Origin: Cellulosimicrobium sp. Marseille-Q4280
Lineage (GTDB): Bacteria > Actinomycetota > Actinomycetes > Actinomycetales > Cellulomonadaceae
Assembly (NCBI RefSeq): GCF_943181405.1
Contig: NZ_CALPBY010000001.1
Span: forward strand, 62,001-126,000
Reading direction: 5' to 3'
DNA: 64,000 nt
Below are positions 9,341-32,201 of this stretch, piece after piece. Below the pieces are notes generated by a model. That model was not told where the DNA came from, made no database searches, and saw only the letters and a list, made by a program, of their open reading frames with translations. The translations under genes were made by a program, and so were the position numbers. The stretch's first letter is position 1; each line of letters starts with the position of its first letter.

Positions 9341-9372
9341 GGCCACACTCGTGTCTGCTCGACGTGGATCGG

Positions 9373-11779: not shown

Positions 11780-11809
11780 TTGCGCATGTGCAGTTACTGC
11801 ACATAGTGT
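11780..11809 (+). promoter_or_regulatory. Leaderless promoter with a 19-bp palindrome in its spacer
   Basis: -35 TTGCGC (11780-11785), 18-bp spacer, -10 TAGTGT (11804-11809); a start 7 nt downstream would coincide with the ATG at 11816. The spacer is filled by ATGTGCAGTTACTGCACAT (11786-11804), perfect 8-bp arms around TTA. A protein bound there would repress this gene and perhaps the divergent DUF6308/SIR2 operon, whose start is 75 bp away. Confidence 0.5.
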
Positions 11810-11815
11810 CCTCGC

Positions 11816-14385: not shown

Positions 14386-16659
14386 CTAGACCGACGACGT
14401 GGACTTGAGGGGTGCGGGAAGCAGGTCGCTGCGCCGGCCGTTCCACAGGACCACGAGCTCGTCACGTGCGCGCGTCGCCGCGACGTAGAGCAGCGACCGC
14501 TCGCGCAGCTCGCCGTCGACCCGATCGGCCTCGGGGAGCGACGAGAGCCCGGAGCCCCAGCCTCCTTCGTCCGACGAGACGCCGAACAGCACGACGCGCT
14601 TGAACTCCATGCCCTTGGAACGGTGCATCGTCATGACGAGCACGCTGCCCGATCCCGTCGCGGCGTCGTCCTGGATGAACTTCGCCTTGACCCCACGCTC
14701 GCTCAGCGCGTGGACCACCTTGTCGCCGATGTGGTTGGCGCGGACCAGCACGCCGATCGTCTCGGGAGGGTCGCCTCCGTCGCGCCAGCCGCGGACGAGC
14801 TCGGCGGCCTGTTCGTACTCGTCGAGGAGTGAGCTGGCCTTCACCTCACGCGGCACCGGCCCGGACCGCGCGGACCGGTAGCCGGTGGCCGCGGCGTCCT
14901 CGGCTTCCATGTCGATCCACTCCTCGCCCGCGAGCACTCCGACGGCGTAGCGCAGCACCTGCGCCGTCGTGCGGTAATTGAGCCTGAGGCGGCGTGAACG
15001 GCCCTGGATGTTGATGCCGTACCGGGAGAGCACGACCTTCTGCCCGTAGATGCGCTGTTGCGAGTCCTCGGCGAGGAAGAGGTCGTCCGGTCCCTGGGCG
15101 ACGAGCGCACGCAGGAACACGAGACGGGCCGGGGCGAGGTCCTGAGCCTCGTCGACGAGCACGTGGTCGGCGAGGCGCGGCTCGCCCGCCGCCGCCCGGG
15201 CGTCGAGGTGGGTGGCCGCGATCATGGCCTTCTCGTCCCAGTCGGTCGACCCCGCGGCGTCGGCGGATGCGCGGTAGGCCTCCACGACCTCCCACACGGC
15301 GACGCGCTGCAGCCGGTTCAGCGCCACGCCTCGTCCGGGCCGGCGGACGCGCAGGTACTCGTCCCGCGACGTGATCCGGTTCGGGACGACGACGGTCGAG
15401 TACTCCGCGACGAAGAACGCCTGGCTCCGCAGCTCGGGTGCGAGGCCGGGACGAGCGGCCGAGATGGCGGCGTCCCACCGTGCGGCCGTCGTGAGATCGA
15501 GGACGTACGGCGAGCGCGGCCCGAGCACGGCGGCGACCGTCTCTCCCCAGGCGGCAGAGGCCACGTGGACGTCCTCGGCCTTCGCGAGCACCCGTCGCGA
15601 GAGCGCGTCGACGCCGGCCACGTACACGCCGGGGTCGCCGAGGTTCTTCGCGATCGGCAGAGACGGGTCGAGGAGCTTCAGCGTCTCCTGCAGCGAGGAG
15701 GCGAGAGTCCGGTTGTACGTGGTGAGGACGACGCGCGCCGCGGGGTCGGTGCGCGCGAGGTGCCGCGCACGGTGGAGCAGCACGACCGTCTTGCCGGTGC
15801 CGGCGCCGCCCGAGAGTCGGAACGAGCCGGTCCGGGCCTTGAAGGCGTAGTCGCGCTGCTCCGGGTGGAGGAACACCCGCCAGCGGCCGAAGTTGTCGTC
15901 CTCGATCGCGGCGCGCAGCGCGGCGTCGTCCTCGATGAACGCGAAGTCCATCTGCGCCGCGGGTTGCTTGAGCGCGTCGAGCAGCTGCTCGTCGCTCTGA
16001 GGGTCGGGCTCGACGGCGAGGACCGCCAGCCCGAGCTTCTCCTTGACCGTCGCGAGCCCGGCGCCGGTCGAGAGGTCGAGCAGCGCGTCACCCTGCCACG
16101 TCGCGGGGGCGCGCTCGGCGACGGCGAGCATCGCGTCCTCGGTCTCGGCCGTCGCAGCAGCGTTCGCGATCTCGACGTCGATGCCCAGGTCGACGAGGTC
16201 GGCGAGGGAGATCCCCTGCGTCTGCAGCAGGGGGTAGGTCGTGTGGTCGACGTCGTCCGGCTTCGGCCGCGGCTTTTCGACGAACGGCTTCTCGACGACC
16301 GGCTTCTCCACCGCGGGCTCGACGACTGACGCAGCCTCGACCAGCTCGGCGATGCCGTTGCGGGGGTTGATCCGCACGACGGCGGTCTTGGCCCGGCTGA
16401 TCGCCTCGTCATGAGGGTAGGTGCCGAGGTACACGTAGTGCGCCTCGGCGGCCTGGCCCTGGATCTTGACGAGGAGGGCGCGCCAGAACTCGTTGACGCG
16501 GCCGGTCCGGATGCGGGAGTCGGCGGAGCCGTTGATCGGCTCGATGTGCAGGCCCGGGGTGGCGTCGTTCTCCTGGAGCTTCTCGAGGAACGCGTACGCG
16601 GCCTTGCGCACGGCGCCGTCGAGCTTGCCGAACGACGGTCCGAGGATGATCTGCGGCAT
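14386..16659 (-). CDS. UvrD-like helicase with N-terminal RelE/ParE-like domain
   Basis: 757 residues. Residues 1-105 look like a RelE/ParE-superfamily fold (LHIEPINGSADSRIRTGRVN, EFWRALLVKI, YLGTYPHDEAISRAK). The rest is a superfamily 1 helicase: Walker A GGAGTGKT near residue 285, HVLVDEAQDL near 495, LNYRTTAQVL, and C-terminal MTMHRSKGMEFKRVVLFG and LLYVAATRARDELVV. RelE-UvrD fusions recur in defence islands beside large DUF1998 helicases; the RelE part is probably a DNA/RNA- or protein-binding module rather than a free toxin. Last gene of the leftward array; its start is 17 nt after the stop of the giant helicase. Confidence 0.85.
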   Translation of the reverse strand: MPQIILGPSFGKLDGAVRKAAYAFLEKLQENDATPGLHIEPINGSADSRIRTGRVNEFWRALLVKIQGQAAEAHYVYLGTYPHDEAISRAKTAVVRINPRNGIAELVEAASVVEPAVEKPVVEKPFVEKPRPKPDDVDHTTYPLLQTQGISLADLVDLGIDVEIANAAATAETEDAMLAVAERAPATWQGDALLDLSTGAGLATVKEKLGLAVLAVEPDPQSDEQLLDALKQPAAQMDFAFIEDDAALRAAIEDDNFGRWRVFLHPEQRDYAFKARTGSFRLSGGAGTGKTVVLLHRARHLARTDPAARVVLTTYNRTLASSLQETLKLLDPSLPIAKNLGDPGVYVAGVDALSRRVLAKAEDVHVASAAWGETVAAVLGPRSPYVLDLTTAARWDAAISAARPGLAPELRSQAFFVAEYSTVVVPNRITSRDEYLRVRRPGRGVALNRLQRVAVWEVVEAYRASADAAGSTDWDEKAMIAATHLDARAAAGEPRLADHVLVDEAQDLAPARLVFLRALVAQGPDDLFLAEDSQQRIYGQKVVLSRYGINIQGRSRRLRLNYRTTAQVLRYAVGVLAGEEWIDMEAEDAAATGYRSARSGPVPREVKASSLLDEYEQAAELVRGWRDGGDPPETIGVLVRANHIGDKVVHALSERGVKAKFIQDDAATGSGSVLVMTMHRSKGMEFKRVVLFGVSSDEGGWGSGLSSLPEADRVDGELRERSLLYVAATRARDELVVLWNGRRSDLLPAPLKSTSSV

Positions 16660-16676: not shown

Positions 16677-19600
16677 TCAGGCGGTCAGGGCCGCGCGGAG
16701 CGCGGCAGCTTCAGGTTCGACGACGACCCATCCGTCGGCGTGGAGGGTGCGGATCGTCTCGTGGTCCAGGTCGTCGACGTGCACGGTCACCTTACGGTCC
16801 GGCCACGACAGCGAGAGAGGTACGCCGTCGCCCACCTCGTCCCCGATCGTCGGTGCCCCGAGTCCCGACGCCGCGAGGTCGAGGAGCTCGACCAGCAGAT
16901 CGTGCTCGGCCTCCGTGGCGAGCCGCGCCACAGCACGCCAGTCGGGGTACGCGTCCAGCCGTTCACGGAGCTCGGCCTCGACACGGCTGGACTCCTCGGC
17001 CTCGGCCAGGGAGGGCTGGACTGCCGGCTCCGCGCCCGTGAGCATCGACCGCGTCACGATCCGCAGCGGCAGCTCCTCGCGGAAGTTCAGCAGGTTGGCG
17101 AGGCGCAGCCACTCCCGCCACGAGGTCTTCTCGTCGTGGGCGAGAGCGTCGAGCGCGTCGTCGAGGACGACGGCGATCTCGAACGACTCGCCGACGAACG
17201 ACCGGACGCCGATCGCGACCGTTCCCTGAGACCACACGCCGCCGAACTTGGTCCCGGGCGGGAGACCTGCGCCGTCGAGCACGTCGAGCGTGACCTGGTC
17301 CATGCCGATCTCGGCGGAGATCGCGCCGCCGTTCAAGGACGGCGCGACGAGCAGAGGCAGCCACCGGGCGAGCTGTGCTCGGCCGCCGCGGTCCGGACGC
17401 TGGACCCAGTCCAGCAGGAGGTCCAGCGCGGGACGGGTCACGAGCGCGACGGTGGCCGGCGACAGCGAGTCCTTGGCCTCGCTCAGGACGGCCGCGGTCG
17501 CCTGGGGGTGCAGCCACGGCACGTCCGCCGTGGACGGGTGCTGGCGGTCGAGGTCCTCCCACGTGAAGGCAAGCACCTGGTAGCCGAGGTCGCGCAGCGC
17601 CTGCCGCTTGGTGGCGTCGTCCGCGACCCTGTTGACGGCGGGGGAGGCGTGGAACTGCCAGCCGTCGGTGTAGATCGCCGTCGGCGGGACGTCCGGGCGG
17701 TCGCTGCGCAGCACGAAGTCGGGCTTGGTGCCGGCCTGGGCGACGAGGACCTGCGGCTCGAGCCGCCAGTGCGCGCCACCGGGCATGGTGATGGACCACG
17801 TGTTGCCGTTCGGTCCCGGCTTCTCGGTGATGGTCGAGCCCATCTTCTCCAGGCGCTCGCGGAGCACCTTGCGGAAGAGCAGCTCGATGTGCGACTCGGG
17901 GTCCGCGACGTCCGGCTCGTCCACGGTGACCGTCCACGGGCTCGCGGTCGGGACCTCGTCGTCGGCACCGACCTGCGACCGGCCGAGCAGGATCGACCGG
18001 AGGTGGCGCGTCGCGGAGGCCCGTGAAACGTGCTCCACCTGGTGCAGTGCGGCGTGGGGGAGCAAGCAGCGCTCGCAGGCGAGCTTTCCGTCGTGCTGGC
18101 AGGGGCACTCCTCGAGGTGCTGCCAGGCGTCGCGCAGCATCGACCAGACGGCCTCGTGGTCGGCGAGCTCGGCGAGGTAGCCCGTGCCGCCGCGGACGAC
18201 GTCGTGCAGCAGCAGGGCCTCGGCGGGGCTGTCCGCCGCGGGGCTGGGGTCGACGACGTCCGTGACCTCCAGGTGGTCCGGGTCACCGCCGATCCGGATG
18301 CGCAGCGCGAGCAGCAGCGCGGCGCGCAGCGAGGGGAGCGAGAAGTCGTCGCCGAGGGTGACGGACTCGGGCAGCCGCAGGACGAGGCCCTCGGTGGTGA
18401 GGGACCGCGCGAGCGCGACCGTCCGGACCTTCTCGTTGCTGGCCTTGCGCAGCGGGCACCACGGGCGGTGCTCGGACGCGCGGTTGGCGCCGGTCGAGGT
18501 GTCGAGCTTGCCGCACTGCTCGCACACACGGAAGAGAGCGACGTCGTGCGGGTGCCCGGCGAGCTCGACGGTGGCGCCCTGCGCGGAGGCCTTGCCGAGG
18601 TTGAGCCACCGGATGGTCATCTGCCGCTGGTAGCGGGCGCCGAACCCGTAGTCCTCGACGAACCACTGGCGTGTGACGGCGGTCGGGTCGACGTCGGCGA
18701 GCGTCCGGATGGTGAAGCGCTCCCGCTCGCGCTCGTCGTGCCGGTCGTCGATGGTCGCCTCTTCGCGCCGGATGACGGACGAGACGCGCTTGAGCTCGAC
18801 CACCTCGACCTGCTGCGCGACGTCGGCGATCCCGGGATCGCCGCACCGCGGGCACGACGACGGCGCGCCGGTGCTTCCCGGCGCGGTGGAGTCCGTGACG
18901 TCCTGCGTGTAGCCGCACCGCGGGCAGCACGCCCAGGTGCGGACGGCGTCGTCGTCCCGGCCGAGGTCGAGCGCGTCGATGGCGATGGCGTACCCGCGGG
19001 CGTAGAAGGTGGAGCCGGGCGCAAAGTCGCGCAGCGCCTGCGCCGAACCCCGGTTCAGCTCCATGTGCTCGGTGCGGTACTCCTGGGAGTCGGGGTCCAC
19101 CCAGGACAGCGCGACCTCGAGCGACACGGAGTCGTCGAGGAGCGTGTAGTTGGGGAGCAGGCCGTGCTCCTCGAGCACGCCCACCCAGTGCTCGGTGGAC
19201 GCCAGGGCCTTCTGGTACTGGGTGAGCTTGAGCGCGGCCTGCGCTGTGCGGAGCGCGCGCTCGTCGTCGCTCGTCGCGGCGGGCGACTCCGCCTTGATCC
19301 GCAGACCGTCGGCGGCGTTGATCGCCGTCTGGATCTCCTTCTCGCGGTACGCGAGGGTCTCCATGCGGGCTCGCCAGGCCTGGGACGCCGCGTGCGCACG
19401 TCCGGCCAGCTCGGAGGAGACGGTCTCGCCCGAGCTCGCGTCGACGGACGGCAGCGCCCACGCCCGCAGGCTGTCCTTCACGGCGTCGGAGATCTCGGCG
19501 AACCCGCTCAGGAACCGGTCGAGCAGTGCCGGGCCCTCGGCCTCGGACAAGGCGACCAGCTCGCCGAGGAACGTGCCCGGCTCGCTGCTGCCGAGCGCGT

Positions 19601-22600
19601 CGGAGGCGGTGCGCGGGTGCGGCGCGTCGGGCCGTCGCGCGAGCTCGTCGGCGAGGGACGCGACGTACTGGCGGCGCAGGATCTCTTCGGCGTCGAGGTA
19701 GGTCGCCGGCGGGCGCACGGCGCCGTTGATGACGCTCCCAGGATCGGTGAACCGCGGGAGCTGGTCGCCGCGTGCGGTGACGAACGCGAGCGCGAGCGCG
19801 TTGCCGGTGAAGCGCCCGGCGCGGCCGACGCGCTGCAGGTAGGACGCGACGGTGCGCGGCAGGGAGCTCAACATGACGGCGGAGAGCTCGCCGATGTCGA
19901 TACCCATCTCCAGCGTCGGCGTGGCGACGAGGACGTTCGGTGCGTCCGGTTCGGGGTCGCTGGACTTGAACGCCGTCTCGTACGCCAGCCGGACCTCGTC
20001 CTCGAGCATGCTGGTGTGCTCGCGCGCGACGACGCGTGCCGGGTCGGAGTCCTCGTACATCCGGCGGTAGAAGTTGTCGGCGATCGTGTGCCGGCGCAGG
20101 CGCCCGGTGCACCGGGCGACGAGGCACGGCGCGCCGTCGAGCTGGTCGACAACGGTCGACGTCGCAGGCACCGTCGAACCGCAGTCGCTGCACTCCAGGC
20201 ACAGTGCTCCGGAGCCGAGCGCGTCCATCCCTGCCGCCTGGACGGTGACGGTCCGGGGAGCGAGGTGGTACGTCGTGGCACCGGACGACGACAGGAGCGT
20301 GCCGACGAGGTCGAAGCGCGCGAGCTGCTTCATGAGCAGGCGCGCGAACGTCGCGGCCTCGGTCTTGTCGACGTGCAGGCACTTGTGCGTCCACGCCGCG
20401 TACCAGCCGCGAGATGAACCGACGGGCTCGAGGTCGTCGCCGGGTGCCTTCGCGCCGGCTCCGGTGATGACGGCGCCCCCGACGCGCGGATACCCCGGCG
20501 CGCTGGCCCCCTTGCCGAATCCGGGCATGCCGTCGTGACGCCGACGGCCGCCGGTGATCCACCAGCGGTTACCGTCCTCCTCGCGGAACTTCTTGAACCA
20601 CTCGTGGTCGATCGCCCCACGGGTGCGCATGTGCTCGAGCACGCCGCGCACCCAGGCCCGGAGCTCGGCGTCGGTCGGCGCGAACCCGTCGAGCACGCCC
20701 TGCCGGTCGGCCTCGTCGAGGGCAGCGCTTGCAGTGGTGAGCAGCAGCTCGGGATCGGCTTCGACCTCGGCGACGACGGTCCCCGTCGCCTCGAGCGTGC
20801 GGCCGACGGCGGAGCGCAGCCCGTGCTCGAGCAGCACGTCGAGCAGCAGGCGGCGGCGCACGCGTCCTCGCACCGTGTGGTGGACCCTGGCCCAGGACGT
20901 GGCCTTCCAGAACGGGGCGAACTTCTCGCGGTCCGCGAGGTCCGGCGGGAGCAGTCGGTATCGCTTCTTCGCGTCGTCCCCGGCCTCGGCGATGACGCGG
21001 TCCACGAGTGTGTCGAGATCGACGGGATCGTCGCCGACGGCGTGGCGCAGTACGGCACGGAGGGTCAGCGCGTGCGAGCGGGACTGCACGAACCCGGCGC
21101 GGTGCGCGGCGTCCTGCACCGAGTCGGTGAAGACGAGCGCCTTCTTCTCCGCCGGGTCGAGCCCAGCGGTGCCGAACAGGCTGGACAACGACACCGACAG
21201 CAGCGTCGCGATGGCCGAACCGAGGAACCGGATGCCGTCCTTCTGCCCGCACGACGGGCAGTCGTCGTCCTTCGAGGGCTTGGCACCGGCGTCGTCCATG
21301 GGGTGCGCGAGAACCGGGAGGGCACCCTGGTCGGCGTCCTCGCCGTCCGGCGGTGAGGAGACGAGGCGGCGCTGCCCGACGAGGAACCACCACAGGCCCT
21401 CGATCTTCTCGCCGCCCTCGGCGCGCTCACCCTCGGCGGGGGCGTGGACGAGGGCGCGGAACCGCTCGTCCCCGCGCAGGTGACGGCCCCGGATGTCGTT
21501 GTCGTGCGTGTCCAGATCGGTCCCGGTCGGGGCAAGCGCGACGCCCCAGCCGGATCGGCCGCAGTGCCGGCAGTACAGCGCGGGGAACGCACGTGACTCG
21601 TCGCCGGACTCGTCCTCGTCGGAGTCCTGCACGACGACACCGTCGTCCTGCCAGCGGAACTGGGCGACGCCCGCGGTCGTGCGGTTCAGGCGCGTCAGCT
21701 CGCGGGTCCACAGGTGCACGTCTACCGACAGTGCGCCACGCCCTGTCTCCTTGCGCAGGTGCGACAGGGCGGAGAGCACCGCGGTGAGCGTCTGCTCGGC
21801 GCGGGCACGCCAGGCCGGGTCCGACGACGGTGTGAACACTTGGGCGGCGAGCTCGCCCAGGTCCACGGCGTGATCCGCGAGCCGGGCCAGGCCGTGGTGC
21901 CCCGAGACAAGAGGAAGCGCCTTGACGAGGGTCAGGAGGTCGTCGTTCGAGTCACCCGACAGGTCCGGGCGGGGCGACGCGGGGTCGACGTAGCCGGCGT
22001 CGCCGGAGCCCGCGCGGTACAGGTGGGACAGCACACTGCGGGTCAGGGCATCGGGGTCGGTCGGGTCAACCTCGGCGAGGTCGGCGAGCAGGGCGCGTGC
22101 GACGACGTCGTCCACGTCGACCGGGTGCAGCCCGAGCGCCTCGGTCCGGGTCACCGCGTCGCCGACCCACTCGTCGAGCGACAGGCGCGACTCGGTCACC
22201 ACGGACTCCGCGACGAACTCCTCGCCGAACACCGTGCGGGCAAACTCCAGCATCGCCGTCGGGTCGCCCTTGTCGCCCAGCGTCGCGGACGTCGCGACGG
22301 GCGTGACGATCCCGAGCGGGCGTTCGACGTCGGCGTCGGTCAGCCCGGCGTCGGCTAGTGCGCCCGGCTCGGTGGGCCAGTGGGACTTCAGTGCGAGCCC
22401 TAGGCGCCGGATGAGCATGGCGACGTCGGTGCCCTGCGCGCCGTCGTAGGTGTGGAACTCGTCGAGCACCAGGTATTGCAGGGAGCGGGCGCTCGCGGAC
22501 CACAGCTTCGCGTCCGCGTGGCGGAGCAGCAGCTGGTCGAGCATCTTGTAGTTGGTCAGGAGGATGTCGGGCGGTGTGTCGCGGATGATCGCGCGGTCGG

Positions 22601-23177
22601 TGATCAGGCCGGCGGTGCTGACCTTCGAGCGAGTGCCAACCTGCTGACCGGTGTAGAGCGAGGCGGTAACGCCGCCGAGCTCGGAGTTCCTGGTGAGTAG
22701 TTCTGTGAGGCGCTTCGCCTGGTCGTTGGCCAGCGCGTTCATCGGGTAGAGGATGACCGCCTTGATACCGCCAAGGCCCGCGCGCTTGGCCCGCAGCACG
22801 TGGTCGAGGATCGGGTAGAGGAACGACTCCGTCTTGCCCGAGCCAGTGCCCGTCGTGACCAGGGTGGGCTGCGGGCGGCGCAGCCCGCCGTCCGGCGCGA
22901 GCGACGACAGCCGCTGGAACGCTGCGGCCTGGTGGCCGTAGGGCGACGGGTAGCCGCCGTACCAGTCGAGCGAGTCGCGCCAGCCGTCGTCCGCGGGGCG
23001 GAACGGGAGGCGCAGCCGCACGTACGGGCCGCGAAACAGGCCTGTCTGAGGCGAGCGCAGGAAGTCCTCGAGCGACGCGCGCGTGCTGGCGTCGGCCAGG
23101 GCGAACGTCGTGCCCAGGTACTCGAGCAGCGCCGCGCGCAGCGAATCGGCCTGGGATACGGGGAGGAGCTCGGTCAC
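16677..23177 (-). CDS. Giant DEAD/DEAH helicase with DUF1998 and C-terminal nuclease-like domain (DruE-like)
   Basis: 2166 residues from a GTG start, the size typical of DruE of Druantia. N-terminal helicase: GTGSGKTE near residue 108, ALANDQAKRL, DEFHTYDGAQGTDV near 240. Helicase C: ATPTLEMGIDIGEL and QRVGRAGRF near 1120. A zinc/DUF1998 region follows (CPRCGY near 1417 with CPRCGD, CEQCGK, and LLHDVVRGGTGYL and CERCLLPHA). Residues about 1770-1880 (TKPDFVLRS, YTDGWQFH, KRQALRDLGYQVLAFTWEDL) look like a PD-(D/E)XK-like or Vsr-like nuclease fold. The last about 60 residues (VPLSLSWPD, ADGWVVVEP) repeat a module found at the end of the GmrSD-like protein upstream. DruE proteins are antiphage; whether this one needs its neighbours is inference. 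Confidence 0.85.
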   Translation of the reverse strand: MTELLPVSQADSLRAALLEYLGTTFALADASTRASLEDFLRSPQTGLFRGPYVRLRLPFRPADDGWRDSLDWYGGYPSPYGHQAAAFQRLSSLAPDGGLRRPQPTLVTTGTGSGKTESFLYPILDHVLRAKRAGLGGIKAVILYPMNALANDQAKRLTELLTRNSELGGVTASLYTGQQVGTRSKVSTAGLITDRAIIRDTPPDILLTNYKMLDQLLLRHADAKLWSASARSLQYLVLDEFHTYDGAQGTDVAMLIRRLGLALKSHWPTEPGALADAGLTDADVERPLGIVTPVATSATLGDKGDPTAMLEFARTVFGEEFVAESVVTESRLSLDEWVGDAVTRTEALGLHPVDVDDVVARALLADLAEVDPTDPDALTRSVLSHLYRAGSGDAGYVDPASPRPDLSGDSNDDLLTLVKALPLVSGHHGLARLADHAVDLGELAAQVFTPSSDPAWRARAEQTLTAVLSALSHLRKETGRGALSVDVHLWTRELTRLNRTTAGVAQFRWQDDGVVVQDSDEDESGDESRAFPALYCRHCGRSGWGVALAPTGTDLDTHDNDIRGRHLRGDERFRALVHAPAEGERAEGGEKIEGLWWFLVGQRRLVSSPPDGEDADQGALPVLAHPMDDAGAKPSKDDDCPSCGQKDGIRFLGSAIATLLSVSLSSLFGTAGLDPAEKKALVFTDSVQDAAHRAGFVQSRSHALTLRAVLRHAVGDDPVDLDTLVDRVIAEAGDDAKKRYRLLPPDLADREKFAPFWKATSWARVHHTVRGRVRRRLLLDVLLEHGLRSAVGRTLEATGTVVAEVEADPELLLTTASAALDEADRQGVLDGFAPTDAELRAWVRGVLEHMRTRGAIDHEWFKKFREEDGNRWWITGGRRRHDGMPGFGKGASAPGYPRVGGAVITGAGAKAPGDDLEPVGSSRGWYAAWTHKCLHVDKTEAATFARLLMKQLARFDLVGTLLSSSGATTYHLAPRTVTVQAAGMDALGSGALCLECSDCGSTVPATSTVVDQLDGAPCLVARCTGRLRRHTIADNFYRRMYEDSDPARVVAREHTSMLEDEVRLAYETAFKSSDPEPDAPNVLVATPTLEMGIDIGELSAVMLSSLPRTVASYLQRVGRAGRFTGNALALAFVTARGDQLPRFTDPGSVINGAVRPPATYLDAEEILRRQYVASLADELARRPDAPHPRTASDALGSSEPGTFLGELVALSEAEGPALLDRFLSGFAEISDAVKDSLRAWALPSVDASSGETVSSELAGRAHAASQAWRARMETLAYREKEIQTAINAADGLRIKAESPAATSDDERALRTAQAALKLTQYQKALASTEHWVGVLEEHGLLPNYTLLDDSVSLEVALSWVDPDSQEYRTEHMELNRGSAQALRDFAPGSTFYARGYAIAIDALDLGRDDDAVRTWACCPRCGYTQDVTDSTAPGSTGAPSSCPRCGDPGIADVAQQVEVVELKRVSSVIRREEATIDDRHDERERERFTIRTLADVDPTAVTRQWFVEDYGFGARYQRQMTIRWLNLGKASAQGATVELAGHPHDVALFRVCEQCGKLDTSTGANRASEHRPWCPLRKASNEKVRTVALARSLTTEGLVLRLPESVTLGDDFSLPSLRAALLLALRIRIGGDPDHLEVTDVVDPSPAADSPAEALLLHDVVRGGTGYLAELADHEAVWSMLRDAWQHLEECPCQHDGKLACERCLLPHAALHQVEHVSRASATRHLRSILLGRSQVGADDEVPTASPWTVTVDEPDVADPESHIELLFRKVLRERLEKMGSTITEKPGPNGNTWSITMPGGAHWRLEPQVLVAQAGTKPDFVLRSDRPDVPPTAIYTDGWQFHASPAVNRVADDATKRQALRDLGYQVLAFTWEDLDRQHPSTADVPWLHPQATAAVLSEAKDSLSPATVALVTRPALDLLLDWVQRPDRGGRAQLARWLPLLVAPSLNGGAISAEIGMDQVTLDVLDGAGLPPGTKFGGVWSQGTVAIGVRSFVGESFEIAVVLDDALDALAHDEKTSWREWLRLANLLNFREELPLRIVTRSMLTGAEPAVQPSLAEAEESSRVEAELRERLDAYPDWRAVARLATEAEHDLLVELLDLAASGLGAPTIGDEVGDGVPLSLSWPDRKVTVHVDDLDHETIRTLHADGWVVVEPEAAALRAALTA

Positions 23178-23348
23178 GTCGGCATCGTTTCAGATTCGTG
23201 CGGCACGCTTCCAAGCTGAACGAGACCGGACAGCGATTCCCCATCCAACTGGAAGAGCTCGCACGCCCGACTGGCGAACGCGCAACCCCGCACAGAAGCC
23301 TCCGCGCCTTGTGGGAATGACGGGCCACACATCTTGGTGGAAGCCCCT

Positions 23349-24194
23349 TCAGGAGGTGTGCGGAGCGTAGAGGTCCCGCGGTTGGTCCTCGTCGGCTTCG
23401 TCGCGTTGCAGTTCGTCGTCTCCCCGGTCTTCGTTCGGCGCGCGCAGGCCCGGTTTCGTCAGTTCCAGACTTGCGAGGTGCCGCTGCAGCCGCCTCGACA
23501 TCGGGAGGAAGGTGGCGAGAGTCAGCCCCCCGGAGAGAAGTGCACCCGCGACAGGGATCGCTTTGGCGACACCGCTCGCGAAGGTCTTCTTGGTCATCGC
23601 CACGCCCAGTAGCCCGGCGACATTCTTGACGGTGGGGTAGATGATGCCCTTGGTGAGCGCCTTCTGCGGCAGCTTCTTCACTGCTTGAGCCGCCATCATC
23701 TCGGCGACCTTCGTCACGCCAGCCTGTGCCACCGATACCCCGAACATGACGCCGATGAAGAGCGTCAGCAGGCTCTCGGTGGCTTCGTCAAGGTCCTCAC
23801 CGCTGTTCTCAAAGAGATCCGGCCAGCTGTAGATGTACGCAAGTTTCTGCGTGACGCGGAGCAAGTGGCCCATGAACTGCGCCAGGTCCGCTGGCACAGA
23901 ACCCAGCAGCGCCCAGCCCCCGGGAATCCCGGCCGCGGCGGAGAGTGCGGTCACCTTGCTCGTCTCAAACCTGATCGAGGAGTCCGCCGCTTCGCGAATC
24001 ACCTCCAGAGGGATGCCAGCGGCCGCTGGGCTCTCTGCGATGGCACGACTGACCTGGTCCTCCGTGCAGTGTCGCTGCAGAGCCTTCCGGAGATAGTCAG
24101 CCCTGTCTATCCGCACGCCCGGGAGCTTCGCCGCAGCCTCGAGCAGCTGCGCGAATCCGAATCCGTTCTGTGCCACTTGCTGGTTCGCTGACAT
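23349..24194 (-). CDS. EcsC-like membrane-associated protein
   Basis: 281 residues. The middle and C-terminal parts hold several hydrophobic segments (AAGIPGGWALLGSVPADLAQFM, TLFIGVMFGVSVAQAG, VAGLLGVAMTKK, AIPVAGALLSGGLTLATFLPM), each about 17-22 residues long, and a Gly-rich character like EcsC-family proteins. The last 30 residues are highly acidic and polar. The gene lies between the giant helicase and the GmrSD-like gene and points the same way, so it belongs to the array. A membrane-disrupting effector or membrane anchor for the defence complex is a reasonable but untested idea. No Shine-Dalgarno is obvious. Confidence 0.65.
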   Translation of the reverse strand: MSANQQVAQNGFGFAQLLEAAAKLPGVRIDRADYLRKALQRHCTEDQVSRAIAESPAAAGIPLEVIREAADSSIRFETSKVTALSAAAGIPGGWALLGSVPADLAQFMGHLLRVTQKLAYIYSWPDLFENSGEDLDEATESLLTLFIGVMFGVSVAQAGVTKVAEMMAAQAVKKLPQKALTKGIIYPTVKNVAGLLGVAMTKKTFASGVAKAIPVAGALLSGGLTLATFLPMSRRLQRHLASLELTKPGLRAPNEDRGDDELQRDEADEDQPRDLYAPHTS

Positions 24195-24279
24195 GGCGAT
24201 GATCTACCAACTTTGAAGTCGAGTTTCGGATGGACGGAAGGTCATATCGCGAGGTGTGGGTCGAACCTACACAAGTCGG

Positions 24280-24390
24280 CTACGTCCCAGCGACGTCCGG
24301 AGTGATTTCACCCGCTCGTTGCGCATGACCTTCCCCAAGCGTGTGAGCGCACCAACCGCTCCTGCGAGCCTGGCGCTCTCGGCTCGTCAT
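24280..24390 (-). CDS. Possible 36-residue ATGA-coupled ORF
   Basis: The ATG (24388-24390) overlaps the TGA of the GmrSD-like gene in an ATGA junction and the frame ends at TAG 24280. The product (MTSRERQARRSGW ... ITPDVAGT) has no recognisable motif. The sequence just after the GmrSD TGA is also open in the GmrSD frame for 39 codons and has better coding character there, so this may instead be a decayed extension of that gene. Confidence 0.2.
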   Translation of the reverse strand: MTSRERQARRSGWCAHTLGEGHAQRAGEITPDVAGT

Positions 24391-27158
24391 GCGCTGGGGA
24401 CACCCTTGCCCGCGACGGCGGCGTTGACGGCCCGCTCCACCGAGTCCGCATCGAACGGCACCAGGACCCATCCGGACGACTCGATCAGTTCCCGGTCCGC
24501 GGTGGGGAGGGTATCCACGGTTGTCGTCAACCCGAGGTCCGGCCATGACAGCGACACGGGGATTCCCTCGACGAGCTCGTCACCGACCCTCGGCACCGGG
24601 AGGGCGTCCACGTCGGCCAGTGCCCGGAGCAGCGCTGCTTCCTCTTCCGTACCGGATCGGATCGCCTCGGCCCATTCGTCCGAGAGCTCAGTAAGCTCCG
24701 CCTGCTCCTCGTCCTCGGCAGCAATGACGGCTGTGAAGGTCTCAGCGGTTGACTCGTCCATCCAGTACGAGCTGGGGTTACCTCCGATGAAGCGCGATGG
24801 CATGCGGTGCCCGCGCTTCGCCGCAGCCCGGTCCGTGAACGCCAACGCTCCTGCCAGCGACCGGACGCTCTCCTCGCCCACACGTTCGGCGAGGACGGGC
24901 GCTGGAACCGGCTCCGGAGCGGCCGCGACAAGTGCGGCAAAGATGCTTCGTGCCCGTTCGCCGATCTCCGCCCAGTACCCCGCAGCGTCGTCGACATCCG
25001 TCTCAGGGTCCCAATGGGGCGCAGTCTCGTCGGAGGCCGACGGTGCTTCCGGGCGGTACAGCTGACGGATGTCCGCGAGCCGCCGCCCGTCCTCCAGCGA
25101 CCAGAACGTCCAGCCGTTGGTGACACCGCCGCGTACGTGGCGGCCGGCGCGGGACGGGCTGTCGAACGACTGCCCTTCCACGACGATCTGACCGGACTCG
25201 GCAACCACGGCCGTCTTGGCCTGCCAGGTCCCTGGCCGCGGACGCAGCACCGTGCCCGCGGCGATCATCCCGGCGCGGACCAGCTCGGCCACCGTGACGC
25301 TCACCTGACCGCTCGTCCGGGCGTCCGTGACCTCGCCCGTGTGCTCCGCCGGTACCGGCCACACCGTGAGCAGTCCGTCGAGGAGCATCTGGGTCCGGAC
25401 GTCGATGTGCTCCTCGTCCCAGCCGGACTCGCTCATCGTCAGCAGACGGCTGTTGAGCAGCAGGACGTCGTGCTGGGCGATCTTCGTGCGCTTGCCTCCG
25501 CGGCCGAGCCAGGCGGCGTTAGACGCCGACGAGTTGAGCTTGCTCGTCAGGAGCGTGAGGTTGCCCAGCCGGTGCACGTGGGCGTTGCGCGCGATCTCTT
25601 CCTCAAGGCTGTCGACGGGCCACTTCTTCTCCCAGGACTGCGGGAGCAGGTGCTCGATCGGGTACGAGCCACGCGGCACCTGCTGCGCGTCGTACTCGCC
25701 CCGCAAATGGTTCTCGGCGGCCTCGAGGAACATCCTCAGCCTTGTCCGCGAGAAGCGCCGGTAGGCCCGCTCCTCCTCGAAGACGTCGCGGATCTCGGCG
25801 TCGCCCGGCCAGTACGTGGAGGTGACCCGGAAGGACCGGAGGGTGTCCTCAACGCGTTGGACGAGGTCCTCTGCGGGCACGCCTCGCATCGCTCGGAGGA
25901 TCTCGGCGACGGCACGTCCCAGTGACGTCGAGGTGAGCCGTAGCAGCGTGCGTCGCACGAGCCAGCTCTCGACGAGTCGGACGACGCCGATCACGACGTC
26001 ATCCGGCAGAGCGCCGTCCACGGGGTGCAGCCGGAGCAGGATCGGAGTCAGCGCCGCCGATCCGATGGCGCGCGACCGATACATGCACATCTCGACCGGG
26101 TCGAGGCTGCGGCGGGTGTCTCCGACGGCGCGGGTCCAGCGCTCGTAGAGCTCGGCCTGAGCGCGCATGTCCGTGAGGACGTCCAGCATCGGGCGCCCGG
26201 CCTCGTGCTCCATGTAGTGCTTGAAGCGCGTGAACGTCGCTCGCGGGCGCACCTCCTCGGCGACCGTCGCGGCGAGCCACTGGTTGATGAACAGGGCCGC
26301 GTGCGTCGACGTCGCCCGCCCGACCGTGATCTCGGAGTCCCAGAACGCGGAGTCGAATGGCCATACGTCCCGGTACGCCGATCGCGCGTCTGCACCCTCC
26401 TTCGCAAGACGTTGGAACACGAGGTTCTTGACCAGGTCGGCTGCCGTCAAGGGCGTACCGCGAGCGTTGAGGGTCTCGAAGATCGCCTGGGAATCCTCGT
26501 TCGACTGCAGGTCGATGACGACGAACTGAATTCCGTTCGAGAGCGCGCCGGCCAGGAGCTCGGCACGCCGCCCGAGGTCGTCGGGCCGGGTATCCGCACT
26601 GACGTCGCCGTCGTCGTCCAGCCACTCGCCGACACAGCGCGCGAAGTAGGCGTGCGCTGCCGTGATGCGCGACGACGCGTGCGGCAGGGTGTCGTGGGTA
26701 ACCGGCGGCTCCGCGTTCATGACGTCGTCGAACGCCGCGCGGTCGCGGTTCGTGTGCCGCACCTTGAGTCGTTGCTCCTCGTCGTCCACGAACGCCGGGT
26801 TGTTGTGGGTCAACGCTTCGAGCTGGGTGCTGTACCGGTCGAGCCCGCGTTCCTCAAAGGCAGCACCTGCGGCATCCATGAGGAGCTGCAACGTGGTCAG
26901 CCGCTGCTGGCCGTCGATGACGTTCCGCACGATGAGGTTTCCCATCGCTGACTCTTCCGCCTGGACGACGACCGCTCCCAGGAAGTGGCTCGCCCCGGTC
27001 GAGCCGCTGTGCCGGATCGACGCGATCCGGACGATGTCCTGCCACAGCGGCTCCCACTGGTCCTCCTCCTCCCACACGTAGGGGCGTTGGAAGAGCGGGA
27101 CCATGATCTGCTGCGGCTGGATGAAGATCTGCTGCGGGGTCCGGACGTTCGTTTCCAC
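24387..27158 (-). CDS. DUF262/DUF1524 (GmrSD-like) restriction protein with extra C-terminal module
   Basis: 923 residues from a GTG start with GAGGA upstream. DUF262 N terminus: IPxF-like VPLFQRPYVWEEE (20-32) and IDGQQRLTTL (81-90), the NTP-using motif. DUF1524 HNH nuclease: YPIEHLLPQSWEKKW and HRLGNLTLLTSKLNSSASN (about 500-545), carrying the catalytic His. A DUF4357-like part (GQIVVEGQSFDSPSRAGR) follows, then a helical linker and a C-terminal module (IPVSLSWPD, SSGWVLVPFD) shared with the DruE-like helicase. GmrSD proteins are type IV enzymes that cut modified phage DNA. Here the protein sits inside a methylase/helicase array, so it may act on unmodified DNA under control of its partners. 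Confidence 0.85.
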   Translation of the reverse strand: METNVRTPQQIFIQPQQIMVPLFQRPYVWEEEDQWEPLWQDIVRIASIRHSGSTGASHFLGAVVVQAEESAMGNLIVRNVIDGQQRLTTLQLLMDAAGAAFEERGLDRYSTQLEALTHNNPAFVDDEEQRLKVRHTNRDRAAFDDVMNAEPPVTHDTLPHASSRITAAHAYFARCVGEWLDDDGDVSADTRPDDLGRRAELLAGALSNGIQFVVIDLQSNEDSQAIFETLNARGTPLTAADLVKNLVFQRLAKEGADARSAYRDVWPFDSAFWDSEITVGRATSTHAALFINQWLAATVAEEVRPRATFTRFKHYMEHEAGRPMLDVLTDMRAQAELYERWTRAVGDTRRSLDPVEMCMYRSRAIGSAALTPILLRLHPVDGALPDDVVIGVVRLVESWLVRRTLLRLTSTSLGRAVAEILRAMRGVPAEDLVQRVEDTLRSFRVTSTYWPGDAEIRDVFEEERAYRRFSRTRLRMFLEAAENHLRGEYDAQQVPRGSYPIEHLLPQSWEKKWPVDSLEEEIARNAHVHRLGNLTLLTSKLNSSASNAAWLGRGGKRTKIAQHDVLLLNSRLLTMSESGWDEEHIDVRTQMLLDGLLTVWPVPAEHTGEVTDARTSGQVSVTVAELVRAGMIAAGTVLRPRPGTWQAKTAVVAESGQIVVEGQSFDSPSRAGRHVRGGVTNGWTFWSLEDGRRLADIRQLYRPEAPSASDETAPHWDPETDVDDAAGYWAEIGERARSIFAALVAAAPEPVPAPVLAERVGEESVRSLAGALAFTDRAAAKRGHRMPSRFIGGNPSSYWMDESTAETFTAVIAAEDEEQAELTELSDEWAEAIRSGTEEEAALLRALADVDALPVPRVGDELVEGIPVSLSWPDLGLTTTVDTLPTADRELIESSGWVLVPFDADSVERAVNAAVAGKGVPSA

Positions 27159-27248
27159 TCTCGCGTTCCTCGTCCTTCGTGGTGGTGGCGACGGCGGTGG
27201 ATCTTGCTGGGGGTGCGAATCTGCTGACAGGTGCGCGTCAGCCAGCGT

Positions 27249-30200
27249 CTACTCCGGAGCGGCAGGCTTTGCTCGTGCGGCGAGGCGGCGCTCGAACTCG
27301 GCGTAGGCCTGGCGCATGTGGGCCTCGCGGTCGAGGGTCTCGAACGGGAACTCGTAGAGGTAGTCGACGCCGCTGGCCGGGTGCGTCGAGGTGAGCTCCT
27401 CGTCCGTGTAGCGGCCGTCGTTGCCGCCCCGCTTGCGCCAGAGCGTCAGGACGGTGTTGGGCACGATGCGGCCGTTGGCGTCGAAGTGGTCGCGGCTGCG
27501 GTCGTAGCCGTAGAGCACCGGGAACTGCGTGCGGTAGATCGTGCAGAGCTCGTCCGCCGTGAGGCCCAGGGACAGGGCGACCAGCGCGTCGATCTCCAGG
27601 AGCGCCTGGCGGCGGTCCTCCGCACGACGCAGCGGCGTCTCCGGCGTCCAGGCCGGCCCCACATCGCCGAGGTCCACGAACCCGGAGCGCTCGGGCAGCC
27701 CGGTCCAGGAGTCGTCGGCGAACGCGTGGTCGAAGCAGTCGGCCCAGAGGTCGGCGTAGGCGTCGGTCACGCAGTTGAGGCGGAGCGATCGCAAGACGAG
27801 TTCCCCAGCGAACGCCCCGTCCACTGAGGGAAGACGGTTGACTGTGCGCGCTGAAATACCAGACTTTGGCGCGCTCCGAACGCCGAAGTCATGGACGAGT
27901 GACGCCATACCCGCGGATAGCAGTACTACGGCCCGAGGGGAAGAGGTGGGTGCGGCCGCAGAAAAGATTCCGTCGACGTGCGCAGCCCCAATCGGGATGA
28001 GTGCGGGGATCAGCGTTCGCTCGCCTGTGTTGGCTGCCATCCGGCGCCATGCAACTCGGTAGAAGCCCCGCGCGGCCACCGACTCAGTGCGGACGGTCGT
28101 GCCGTCCGAGCGGGTGGCGGTCTCTACGTCGCGAATCCACCGTGCGTCTACGGCGGGCACGGGCTGGATCGGATTGCCGTCTCGGCCAAGTATGACCTCG
28201 CGGGTCCAGTGCGTGTATGCCGCATCATATTTCGAGCGATCTCCCCGCGGCTTGTACGAAGTTGCAAGGATCGCGTCAAGCTGCAGCGACTCCAAATCAA
28301 CATCGGTCCAGTCGCGGTGGTGTTTCATCGTCACGTTTGGCGACTTGAATGCTGGGTTTGCTACGAACAAGTGCGGCCCTTGAAGCACCGCGTCATCCCA
28401 GGATTCTGGCGCGCCCCAATCCGAGTCAAAATAGCCCTTAGCCTTGGTGGCGGCATTCTCCATCCATCCGAGCGAGAACTCGAGTCCGATCGAGCCGATC
28501 CTTGGAGCCTCCGCAAGACTATCCAGCACCGACGCTGTCGAGCGGTTCACCGCATAGACCATTCGGCTCTGGCGCGCGGGAGTTCCCTCGTCTTCCAGGA
28601 CGTCGCGCCATGTTTCGAGCACATGGTCATCCACGCGGACAACGCGGGCCGCGTGCGGCCTTAAATCCCAATTGCCGTCTGGATCCTTGATTCCCGGTTC
28701 TTCGCCGGAGCCGTCGTGCACGAGCGATCTTTCGACAGTGTCCGGGTGATAGAGCGACGCCGCCTGCAAAAAGTTGGGCTTCTGACGTGACGCGTAGACG
28801 TTGACGCCGTACCGCTTTTGGTTCTGAATCTCAAAGAGTTGGAACTCGTTGATGAACTGCCAGTGCCGACGAAGCCGCTCGTAGGTCATGGCGCGCAGGG
28901 GCCCAGCTTTCTCATCCGTGAAGTGCGACTCGAGGTGAATCATCGCCGTCACGCCTGTCAACGACTGGTGGCGCCATGTCTGCTCCATGAAGCAGCGGTA
29001 GAGATCGGGAAAGAGTCCCGCGAGCAGGGGGTAGTTGGAGATATCGCTGACGTAAGCCGCCGTCGTGAGAACCTCAGCCGTGCTACCCACCACAAGTTCC
29101 ACCAAACCCGGGAGGCTGAGCGTCGCCTTGCGGCGTATAGCTATCTCAGTTTGCGTCGCCGTTGCCTTGAGTTGCCACCACGGATCACCCTCAGCAAGTA
29201 GCGCTTCGGGATCCACCCTCGGCCGCACCCACGGTGGGTTCCCGACCTGCAGGTCGAACCCGCCGCGCCCAGCGAACACCGGCGCGAAGTCGAGCTTCCA
29301 GTGGAAGAACCCCTGCTGCGCGGCCACCTTCTCGCAGACGCGGAGCCACGGGTGCTCCGCGAGCACTTTCTCGGGGTCGAGCGCCTGCGCGAAGCCCAGG
29401 TCGAGCTCCTCGGCGGTGTTGAGCTCGTTCCAGTCGGCCACGTCGGAGAACGTCTGGTCGCCGCCGCGCCAGCGCTTGCCGGAGCCGGTGCTCGCGGCCG
29501 AGACGGTGACCCCGACGAGCTTCTGCAGCGCGTCGATCCACTTACCGAGCGACGGCGGATCGATCCGGACGCGACCGCGCTCGCCGCCGTCGGACACCTC
29601 GGTGCCCGCTCCCTCAGTCTCCACACTGTCGACCCGCGTGGTCAGCTCGTCCGTGAGCGGCCAGAACCACAGCGCGCACCAGGCGTCCATGATGCGGCGC
29701 AGGCGCTGATACGCCCCGCGCGCGTCAGCGAGGCTCGCCTCGATCTGCTCGCGGGTCACGGCCCCACCGGCAGGGAGGTCGTCGGCACCCCAGACGTCGA
29801 CCTGCCGACGGATCTCGGACTCCGCGATCGTGAGCCGGCGCAGCGCGATGTCCCAGAGCTGCTCGACGCGCAGCGCGATGTCGTCGAGCGCCTTGGCCTG
29901 CGCGGCCGTCGGGCGCACGAGCACGCTCTTGCGCCACGCCTTGAGGCGGGCCAGCGCCTCGGGTGCGAGCTCCTTGGCCTCCTTCGCCTCGACGGCTGAC
30001 CCCCAGCCCTCGGCCGGCAGCAGGAAGTGGTGGATGCCGCCGTCGACACCCGGCTCCGAGCCCTCAGAGTCAGGCGCCCCAGACAGGAGAGACACGTCGC
30101 GCGGGATCGCCTTGAGCCAGTCCTTCTTGGCCACCTGGTCGCGGCGAAACACCGCGCGGCGCGCCCCGATGAGCGAGTTGCCGCGCTTGAGGTGCAGTCC

Positions 30201-32201
30201 GAACCACGGTGCGCTCAGGCCCTTGCCCATGGTGTCGAGCCACAGGGAGATCTCCGCGAGCTCGACCGCGGTCGCGTTGAGGTCGACCCCGTACACCTGG
30301 TGCAGGGCGATGTACGCCTTGACCTTCTGGAGCTCGGCCGCGTACCTGTCCGGGTCGATCGACTCGCCGCGCTCCGCCTGGGCGCGCTTGAGGTACTCGG
30401 TAGCGAGCTGGCGCACGGCCTCGATCGCGAACGCACCCGACCCGAGGGCCGGCTCGCACACGGTCAGGTCGAGGATCTCCCGGGCGGACGTCGTCCGACG
30501 CACGCCGTCCGGGCCCTCCTGGTCGAGCAGTTCCTCCAACGCCTGCGACACCGTGAACCGGGTCAGCACCTCGGGCGTGTAGTACGACGCCGACTGCTGC
30601 CGCTCCCGGCCCGCGAGCCGGAACACGAACGTGCCCTGCTCGTGGACGACCGGCTTGAGCTCGCCCGTGACGGGGTCCGGCGTCTTGACGAAGTCCTTGG
30701 CCGCGATGGACTGGGACCTCACGACCGGGACCACCCACGAGCCCTTCTCGGAGTTCCCGTCCTTGGCGACCTCGTGCAGGTCCTCGGTGGCGAAGAAGCC
30801 CGTGTAGCTCATGAGGCCCTCGTACACCGCGCCGAGCTGGTTGATACCGAGCTCGGCGTACGAGATGAACCCGCGGTCCTTGCCCTTCGACTCCTTGCTC
30901 AGCAGCAGGTGCCGCAGCACCTGCTGCAGAGCCGCGTTACCCAGCCCGACGGCGTCGATGTGCGCGGTCGCCTTCGGCAGGAACAGGTCGGCCTTGAGCG
31001 GCTGGAACGTCAGGCCGTCCGCGCCGTCGTCGACGCGCTGCACCTCGCCGTCGACCCGCTCGCCGCGTGCGGCGCCCGCCGCGCCGTCGTGCCCGGAGTC
31101 GACGAGCGCAAAGAGCGTGCTCAGCGACTGGTACAGGTGCGTGCCGTGCTCGGAGCGCGGCCCGGCGATCTCCACGAGCGTCAGCTCGCGCAGTCGGTCG
31201 AGGCTGTACCCCTGCTCGTACGTCGGGTCGCCGACAGGCAGCACGCCGAGCTCCGGCGAGGCCTCCGCGAACAGCAGGAAGAGGATGCGGTAGAGGTAGC
31301 GCAGCGCGTGCCGCGCGAGTTCCTGCGCCTCCGCCTGCGGCAGCGGCTCCAGCCCCTGCGCGGCGCGGCGACGCACCACCTCGTTGGCGATGATCTCGAT
31401 GGACAGCCGCACGCCCTCGCGCAGGTCCTTCGACACCCCGACGGTGTGCTTCACCGACTCGTCGAGGACGCCTGGCCACCAGAGGTTGCCCTCCGGGTCC
31501 GGGGCGAGCGACGCCGCCTCGACGCACGTCAGCGCAGTGTCCGTCTCGCCACCGCGCCTGTCGTCCGCGCGCTCGGCCACGAGCTGCACGTCGACGGCGA
31601 GGTAACGGCCCTCTGCCCAGCGGGTCTTCTCCGCGACGAGCATCCACCCGCCCGCCAGCACGAGCGCGAACTCCGGGGCGTCGTCCTGCACGAACAGGTA
31701 GGACAGCAGCCGCGCCACCGAGTGGATCTGCGTCTTCTCGTCGACGTCGTACGGCTCCAGCAGCGTCCGGTCGCGGCGGGCCGGCTTGGCGGGGTCACCC
31801 TTGACCAGCAGCGACTCGACATCCTTGACTGCGACGGCCTCGACGATCACGAGCGGCGCGGCGGCCTCCAGGCCGGTCGCGTGGATCCACTCGACCGGCC
31901 CGACGCGCTTGGACTGCAGCGCGATCGTCGAGTACCCGAGCACCTCGCGCAGTTCGGCGTACAGATCGGGCAGCACGGCGAACCGGCCGCCCGCCTCGCC
32001 GAGGCCCGCCAGCGTGGACAGCAGGTTCGCGCGCGCGCCCACGAACCGGGCGCGCGTCGTCTGCTCACCCTCCTTCGCGGCGTCGTCCCACGCCTTGCGG
32101 CGCTCGAGCACCTGCGTGCGGAACGACTGCTTGCCGTCCGTGCCGAAGTAGTGCTCGCTGATCCAGTCCTCGCCGACGACGATCGCGTCGCTCGCGGCCA
32201 T
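27249..32201 (-). CDS. Giant N6-adenine DNA methyltransferase (DrmMI / type IIG-like)
   Basis: 1650 residues from the ATG at 32201, which overlaps the stop of the SNF2 gene (TGATG). The N-terminal 550 residues are a helical region common in DISARM class 1 and PglX-type methylases (LARHALRYLYRILFLLFAEA, ASYYTPEVLTRF). SAM-binding motif I is CEPALGSGAF near residue 578; the catalytic motif IV is NPPW near 988. From just after NPPW to about residue 1475 the DNA is clearly lower in GC than the rest, the position of the target-recognition domain. The protein methylates adenine, by family, and would mark host DNA. It is the second gene of the leftward array. Confidence 0.85.
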   Translation of the reverse strand: MAASDAIVVGEDWISEHYFGTDGKQSFRTQVLERRKAWDDAAKEGEQTTRARFVGARANLLSTLAGLGEAGGRFAVLPDLYAELREVLGYSTIALQSKRVGPVEWIHATGLEAAAPLVIVEAVAVKDVESLLVKGDPAKPARRDRTLLEPYDVDEKTQIHSVARLLSYLFVQDDAPEFALVLAGGWMLVAEKTRWAEGRYLAVDVQLVAERADDRRGGETDTALTCVEAASLAPDPEGNLWWPGVLDESVKHTVGVSKDLREGVRLSIEIIANEVVRRRAAQGLEPLPQAEAQELARHALRYLYRILFLLFAEASPELGVLPVGDPTYEQGYSLDRLRELTLVEIAGPRSEHGTHLYQSLSTLFALVDSGHDGAAGAARGERVDGEVQRVDDGADGLTFQPLKADLFLPKATAHIDAVGLGNAALQQVLRHLLLSKESKGKDRGFISYAELGINQLGAVYEGLMSYTGFFATEDLHEVAKDGNSEKGSWVVPVVRSQSIAAKDFVKTPDPVTGELKPVVHEQGTFVFRLAGRERQQSASYYTPEVLTRFTVSQALEELLDQEGPDGVRRTTSAREILDLTVCEPALGSGAFAIEAVRQLATEYLKRAQAERGESIDPDRYAAELQKVKAYIALHQVYGVDLNATAVELAEISLWLDTMGKGLSAPWFGLHLKRGNSLIGARRAVFRRDQVAKKDWLKAIPRDVSLLSGAPDSEGSEPGVDGGIHHFLLPAEGWGSAVEAKEAKELAPEALARLKAWRKSVLVRPTAAQAKALDDIALRVEQLWDIALRRLTIAESEIRRQVDVWGADDLPAGGAVTREQIEASLADARGAYQRLRRIMDAWCALWFWPLTDELTTRVDSVETEGAGTEVSDGGERGRVRIDPPSLGKWIDALQKLVGVTVSAASTGSGKRWRGGDQTFSDVADWNELNTAEELDLGFAQALDPEKVLAEHPWLRVCEKVAAQQGFFHWKLDFAPVFAGRGGFDLQVGNPPWVRPRVDPEALLAEGDPWWQLKATATQTEIAIRRKATLSLPGLVELVVGSTAEVLTTAAYVSDISNYPLLAGLFPDLYRCFMEQTWRHQSLTGVTAMIHLESHFTDEKAGPLRAMTYERLRRHWQFINEFQLFEIQNQKRYGVNVYASRQKPNFLQAASLYHPDTVERSLVHDGSGEEPGIKDPDGNWDLRPHAARVVRVDDHVLETWRDVLEDEGTPARQSRMVYAVNRSTASVLDSLAEAPRIGSIGLEFSLGWMENAATKAKGYFDSDWGAPESWDDAVLQGPHLFVANPAFKSPNVTMKHHRDWTDVDLESLQLDAILATSYKPRGDRSKYDAAYTHWTREVILGRDGNPIQPVPAVDARWIRDVETATRSDGTTVRTESVAARGFYRVAWRRMAANTGERTLIPALIPIGAAHVDGIFSAAAPTSSPRAVVLLSAGMASLVHDFGVRSAPKSGISARTVNRLPSVDGAFAGELVLRSLRLNCVTDAYADLWADCFDHAFADDSWTGLPERSGFVDLGDVGPAWTPETPLRRAEDRRQALLEIDALVALSLGLTADELCTIYRTQFPVLYGYDRSRDHFDANGRIVPNTVLTLWRKRGGNDGRYTDEELTSTHPASGVDYLYEFPFETLDREAHMRQAYAEFERRLAARAKPAAPE

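Follow-up and report, generated by a model that had tools for sequence, protein, structure and literature searches.

Introduction

In the passages of Bell et al. 2025 (PMC12458937) considered here, ARMADA type II is defined by a BrxHII-like helicase (ArmA), a PglX-like methylase (ArmB), a YprA-like helicase (ArmC) and a GajB-like UvrD helicase (ArmD), encoded in a gene order that is called 'strict', interruption by further genes not being discussed; the ARMADA II operon of E. coli ATCC 8739 was studied there by deletion. Type II YprA homologues are described there to often bear additional inactivated EEP and Vsr domains, while ArmD is ascribed an N-terminal RelE-like domain. A minus-strand operon matching this definition is present in a 64,000 nucleotide stretch of Cellulosimicrobium sp. 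Marseille-Q4280 (NZ_CALPBY010000001.1, positions 62,001–126,000), hereafter called the window, to whose positions all coordinates refer. PADLOC and Pfam recognised the four Arm genes in the described order, from which type II was assigned, with genes for a GmrSD-like and an EcsC-like protein interposed between ArmB and ArmC. Here we report that ArmC and the GmrSD-like protein end in the same module, a catalytically dead nuclease domain of approximately 100 residues that also terminates proteins of other defence systems.

Synergy between Druantia and Zorya, as well as between ARMADA and Druantia, has been described, although the passages concerned do not establish a physical part common to these systems. 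The passages of PMC13192584 report that the Druantia-associated ZorE, a Zorya protein, has a C-terminal extension reminiscent of the PD-(D/E)xK fold, which we liken to the module by description only. There, the extension goes along with the co-occurrence of a YprA-type system (in 53 of 59 leaves by that paper's count), but the protein is a Zorya II ZorE, whereas the carrier found here is a Zorya I ZorD. The literature searched did not yield a description of one and the same module at the end of DISARM DrmB, two kinds of GmrSD, Zorya I ZorD, Druantia-III-like DruE and a Schlafen-type helicase. We found no report of it on GmrSD, DrmB or ZorD among the top-ranked records of literature searches or in the passages of PMC12458937, PMC10952713, PMC12839542 and PMC13192584 that were searched; their supplements lay outside this scope and may hold prior notice. 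In the main text of PMC12458937, GmrSD, DUF262 and ZorD are absent and the two mentions of DrmB are unrelated to the inactivated Vsr domain. A domain common to ARMADA, DISARM, Zorya, Druantia-like systems and GmrSD provides a concrete, deletable handle of about 100 residues, its profile gives a name to the extra C-terminal stretch seen in certain DrmBs and in other proteins, and it may be a common part assembling or regulating otherwise separate defence systems.

Results and Discussion

Both tails are the extreme C-termini of two real open reading frames (ORFs) on the minus strand, namely ArmC, a DruE-like YprA helicase of 2166 residues (16677..23177; PADLOC DruE and Pfam), and the GmrSD-like protein of 923 residues (24387..27158). 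BLASTP of the whole proteins aligns ArmC residues 2058–2166 with residues 814–913 of the GmrSD-like protein at 39.5 % identity over 109 columns (E 1.2e-11), while the next-best match between them only reaches E 2, in agreement with a preliminary description of the locus that had considered the proteins otherwise unrelated. Comparison of the last 120 residues gave a score of 161 versus a maximum of 64 in 2000 shuffles, and when the tails of 37 ArmCs from other genomes were made into a profile, with the window proteins excluded, both were recovered, the E-values referred to one million sequences being 3e-20 and 1.4e-18. At the DNA level, a single stretch of 58 bases is common to both tails (76 % identical, E 1e-8). 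When a tail profile including both window tails was run on the window, none of the other 345 of the 347 ORFs of at least 60 residues scored better than E 0.8. At the level of sequence, these comparisons show that the two tails are homologous. The shared C-terminal module put forward in the preliminary description is thereby borne out, but its length of about 60 residues is not: as the BLASTP alignment runs farther towards the N-terminus, we assign it roughly 100 residues, encoded at 16680..17006 in ArmC and at 24420..24719 in the GmrSD-like protein, both on the minus strand.

The module had been pictured as a small docking tag. Instead, our analysis shows it to be an acidic domain of the Vsr/DUF559-like PD-(D/E)xK fold without the catalytic loop. 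The AlphaFold model of the GmrSD-like tail, the one tail modelled, displays a Vsr-like fold with a predicted local distance difference test (pLDDT) score of 83; together with the homology of the two tails this speaks against the unrelated folds that had been named as a refuting outcome. With Foldseek alone, no match fell below E 0.001, and a model of the C-terminal 415 residues of ArmC was unusable (pLDDT 52). In DUF559-type proteins, the tail profile aligns with the greater part of the fold, where both the LDFAWP / aWPdrkvaV and the GW strands are covered, and the DUF559 Pfam family scores above its cut-off in two of five such proteins compared and just below it in the remaining three. Unlike the tails, these proteins of around 300 residues contain a domain that looks active, whereas the tails lack the DG..WH loop and do not hold the catalytic residues of a Vsr/DUF559 domain: the loop bearing the catalytic His is deleted, the His is absent from 50 of 51 aligned tails, the first Asp is retained in 21 and the Glu of VEYDG in four. 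The nuclease domain of PvuRts1I and AbaSI differs as well, being catalytic and N-terminal to an SRA-like domain. We also considered whether the tail arose by duplication of the active-looking Vsr domain within ArmC, and rejected this, as the tail profile does not match that domain (hhalign probability 1.4 %) but matches DUF559 strongly.

Because a dead nuclease fold is kept at the C-termini of helicases and nucleases across several systems, a protein–protein assembly or regulatory surface is the simplest reading of the module, to which we would give about an even chance. Its partner could be a second Vsr-like domain, the C-terminal part of a YprA-type helicase or some shared host or DNA-repair factor, and the contact would assemble or hold back a complex on DNA. 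For the window, this would mean that GmrSD, a nuclease of modified DNA, joins the assembly of ArmC or comes under its control; the two window tails might also pair with each other. PvuRts1I dimerises via its Vsr-like domain, and DruE is described in passages of PMC13192584 to assemble through its C-terminal domain, interface mutants losing both defence and the synergy with Zorya.

We favour this assembly or regulatory role over that of a sensor, in which the dead domain would bind a nucleotide, a DNA end or an infection-linked nucleic acid and switch the attached enzyme on. Fast-evolving inactive restriction endonuclease domains at the C-termini of defence helicases are proposed as nucleotide or nucleic-acid sensors in passages of PMC12839542, and a sensor would fit the fast evolution under constraint reported below as well as the range of helicases and NTPases, from several systems, to which the module is attached. 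The loss of the catalytic-His loop, however, speaks against it, and the net negative charge of 67 of 68 tails disfavours DNA binding, although the active-looking DUF559 domains are likewise acidic; we regard a sensor as rather unlikely. The acidic character would also suit a brake, i.e. an intramolecular DNA mimic by which the helicase or nuclease bearing it would stay switched off until the cell is infected, and Druantia activity was indeed raised when an acidic C-terminal patch of DruE was neutralised (PMC13192584, in the passages considered). The authors place this patch at interfaces of the C-terminal domain and read its effect as tuning of geometry or assembly, however, and a single brake suiting several unrelated enzyme bodies would be hard to envisage; a brake appears quite improbable to us.

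The module is ancestral in ArmC and a standard part of the ARMADA helicase-nuclease. When ArmCs were picked by their body and not by their tail, 12 of 13 had it, comprising all five plasmid-borne ones (E. coli, Microvirga, Martelella, Tsukamurella and Streptomyces, those fetched of 203 records with a match), all four from other genomes of a phylum search of 296, and three of four from viral contigs. The lone exception, L181, scores E 0.27, yet shares 79 % identity with the ArmC of Martelella, in which the module is present. For several of the distant ArmCs, the E-values reach only 1e-4 to 1e-7 in searches that covered just a few sequences; the location at the very C-terminus supports these matches. 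A search of the order with a single sequence matched in 30 of 396 genomes, 26 of which were judged real, and all 26 showed an ArmC-length frame; four genomes (G073, G129, G276, G322) were set aside since their translations lack the motif, as was, for the same reason, a third match in G000 from another search. DUF559-type proteins of about 300–370 residues were likewise removed before counting in other searches. Another 40 annotated ArmC loci all have the module, but had been selected by it. Searches of viral contigs with P0002, the ArmC C-terminus, the E. coli ArmC and an actinobacterial ArmC were unproductive, and the plasmid search with P0002 gave 84 records, of which not one spanned 80 % of the query; of the 30 listed, none extended into the P0002 tail.

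In the window, ArmC is laid out as DEAD, Helicase_C, MZB/DUF1998 (MZB above the Pfam cut-off), a Vsr-like nuclease domain, a further C-terminal region and the module. The internal nuclease domain, distinct from the tail (17550..17897, minus strand, approximately residues 1761–1876), shows a pattern of E, D, DG..H and R that is invariant with four viral-contig ArmCs, and is probably an active Vsr-like nuclease judging from these residues, the Vsr assignment being taken from passages of PMC12458937. As the inactivated Vsr domain of ARMADA II YprA is likewise C-terminal to this active domain in these passages, the module very probably is the inactivated Vsr domain of Bell et al. Two unusual ArmCs were seen among the genomes: that of G367 (L042:2422-9618) terminates in two tandem copies of the module, and that of G652 (L076:2664-3674 and 6823-11829) seems cut to a tailed C-terminal ORF of 336 residues between ArmA and ArmD, which stands beside a tailed DruE-like protein.

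Searches for the module in other defence proteins, as suggested in the preliminary description, ruled out a tag unique to the window locus: 20 proteins other than ArmC carry it in 18 genomes. GmrSD-like carriers occur in the window, in G863 (body 92 % identical), in G283 (a different GmrSD) and in three Promicromonospora genomes, one as a fragment. The module also ends DISARM DrmB in seven genomes (G365, G367, G024, G099, G898, G908, G893), Zorya I ZorD in G283, an SLFN-g3/GIY-YIG (Schlafen-type) helicase in G283 and G892, and YprA/DruE-like (Druantia-III-like) helicases in G652, G858, G915 and, at a weaker score, G812. Taken with their upstream neighbours, the DruE-like genes of G652 and G915 recall, by size and arrangement, DruH-DruE of Mycolicibacterium smegmatis as given in passages of PMC13316683; PADLOC returned no DruH match at 1e-10 for these neighbours. 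Besides the 20 carriers stand the ArmC remnant of G652 and a second GmrSD_N gene in G863 (L256:8044-10768), followed by the module in another frame (a split gene, sequencing error or pseudogene). Two neighbourhoods may be added: in G283 (L034:1-4272, L033) a tandem ArmD pair is followed by Zorya I ZorA, ZorC and the tailed ZorD, and in G812 (L263:2233-13489) genes resembling ArmA and ArmB come after the tailed YprA/DruE-like helicase, as in the order given for ARMADA type I in passages of PMC12458937.

Docking to the same partner, as had been proposed for the window pair, is only partly supported, namely in so far as carriers co-occur with tailed ArmC. A survey of the family found the module in 24 of 221 genomes, with ArmC in 14 (G930 counted by frame length only), a non-ArmC carrier in 14 and both in four, which exceeds expectation (P 0.007, uncorrected for relatedness). 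A tailed ArmC is also present in seven of the 18 carrier genomes (G000, G283, G365, G367, G024, G099, G863). The DrmB search gave 30 ORFs in 29 of 297 genomes, two of them tailed and both sharing a contig with ArmC, while the 28 untailed ORFs end within 28 residues of the reference match and ArmC was found in three of 27 untailed genomes (Fisher P 0.025); of the 24 ArmC-negative ones, seven were rechecked with the profile, while for the other 17 the negative comes from the single-sequence search, which had missed G099. A strict dependence of carriers on ArmC, suggested by the first genomes, was broken by the family survey; these first impressions were biased as the genomes scanned had been chosen for their ArmC tail.

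Several counts weigh against docking to a shared partner. No full-length tailed ArmC was found in 11 of the 18 carrier genomes, one of which is G652 with its remnant, and these include DrmB, Schlafen-type and DruE-like carriers. Among GmrSD genes just upstream of ArmC, those of the window, G863 and G283 have the tail, but five of eight do not (G365, G186, G859, G804 and, on the opposite strand, G386). The set of window GmrSD orthologues holds eight loci, of which L102 was left out as too distant to compare; three of the remaining seven have the tail, one as a fragment, and four lack it, so that absence from orthologues of one partner, which the preliminary description had regarded as refuting, applies in part. 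In the genomes of the three tailed orthologues no other tail was found, and in those of the four untailed ones none at all. That the module marks a pair with one common ARMADA partner is not supported. A wider reading, in which a dead Vsr domain native to ArmC and grafted on DrmB, ZorD, GmrSD, DruE-like and Schlafen-type helicases would recruit separate systems physically to one DNA-bound assembly or a shared host factor, would provide a molecular basis for cross-system synergy if true; we consider it unlikely.

To trace the history of the tails, a tree was built over 91 columns from 51 tails and five DUF559 domains; its bootstrap had not settled. The ZorD and GmrSD tails of G283, 61 % identical although the protein families differ, group with two Promicromonospora GmrSD tails (100/92), a DruE-like tail joins this group (95/82), and three DrmB tails cluster with the Tsukamurella ArmC tail (96/83). 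GmrSD tails require at least three label changes on well-supported branches. From these groupings and the ZorD/GmrSD identity, repeated moves of the module between bodies are the most likely history. For the tail of the window GmrSD, no settled place emerges among the ArmC tails, leaving the proposed duplication inside one locus unproven for the window pair. A swap of this tail relative to the Promicromonospora orthologues (55 % body, 35 % tail identity) was considered and dropped, since ArmC orthologues show the same contrast.

The tails evolve fast, with 27–43 % tail versus about 50–67 % body identity in 20 of 21 ArmC pairs, but they are constrained, outside ArmC too. The ratio of nonsynonymous to synonymous substitution rates (dN/dS) is 0.28 for the GmrSD tail and 0.12 for its body (window versus G863), 0.25 and 0.20 for DrmB (G893 versus G898), and 0.27–0.44 versus 0.15–0.23 for four ArmC pairs; values of at least 1 were reached in none of 500 bootstraps in five pairs, the GmrSD and DrmB ones among them, and in 5 of 499 in the closest pair. 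Two pairs with saturated dS were not used and closer ones taken instead. This constraint outside ArmC lowers the odds that the module is a hitch-hiker without selected role there, spread as C-termini within defence islands swap by homology. Its patchy distribution (two of 30 DrmB ORFs, and one of three full-length ZorDs as judged by frame length) and the clustering of tails from different bodies would suit such a passenger, whereas the dN/dS values and the frame, kept in 17 of 18 genomes with non-ArmC tails (the other being a fragment), speak against it, and we hold it to be very improbable.

The remaining genes of the window locus all lie on the minus strand. ArmA, a BrxHII/DrmD-like SNF2 helicase, is encoded at 32201..35248 (PADLOC DrmD/BrxH; Pfam SNF2 and Helicase_C), and ArmB, a PglX/DrmMI-like adenine methyltransferase, at 27249..32201 (PADLOC; Pfam Eco57I); the ArmB ORF is open from 32402, but homology starts at an ATG near 32201, the PADLOC match beginning at residue 68. 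ArmD, the GajB-like UvrD helicase, occupies 14386..16659 (PADLOC, Pfam UvrD), and Pfam gave no RelE match in it at E 0.1, no fold search having been made. The GmrSD-like protein contains GmrSD_N, GmrSD_C, RAMA and DUF6416, all above the Pfam cut-offs, with the module last. GmrSD_N (DUF262) at 119 bits and GmrSD_C (DUF1524) at 82 bits, against cut-offs of 33 and 23, identify it as a GmrSD type IV restriction protein, GmrSD_C being HNH by family name only. Between the two tailed proteins sits the EcsC-like protein of 281 residues (23349..24194), which matches the PADLOC candidate family PDC-S30 at E 1e-104, EcsC itself remaining below the Pfam cut-off.

Similar insertions and hybrid arrangements were seen elsewhere. 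A DrmB-like gene lies co-directionally just upstream of ArmA-ArmB-ArmC in L188 (G494), L215 (G659) and L178 (Tsukamurella plasmid); the DrmBs of these hybrid DISARM-ARMADA loci are untailed, and two of the loci include a DrmA-like helicase. According to a crude ORF caller, extra ORFs other than ArmB stand just upstream of ArmC in eight of 40 ARMADA II loci (L185–L224), and GmrSD-type genes recur in this position, both in these loci and in the window (23178–27248).
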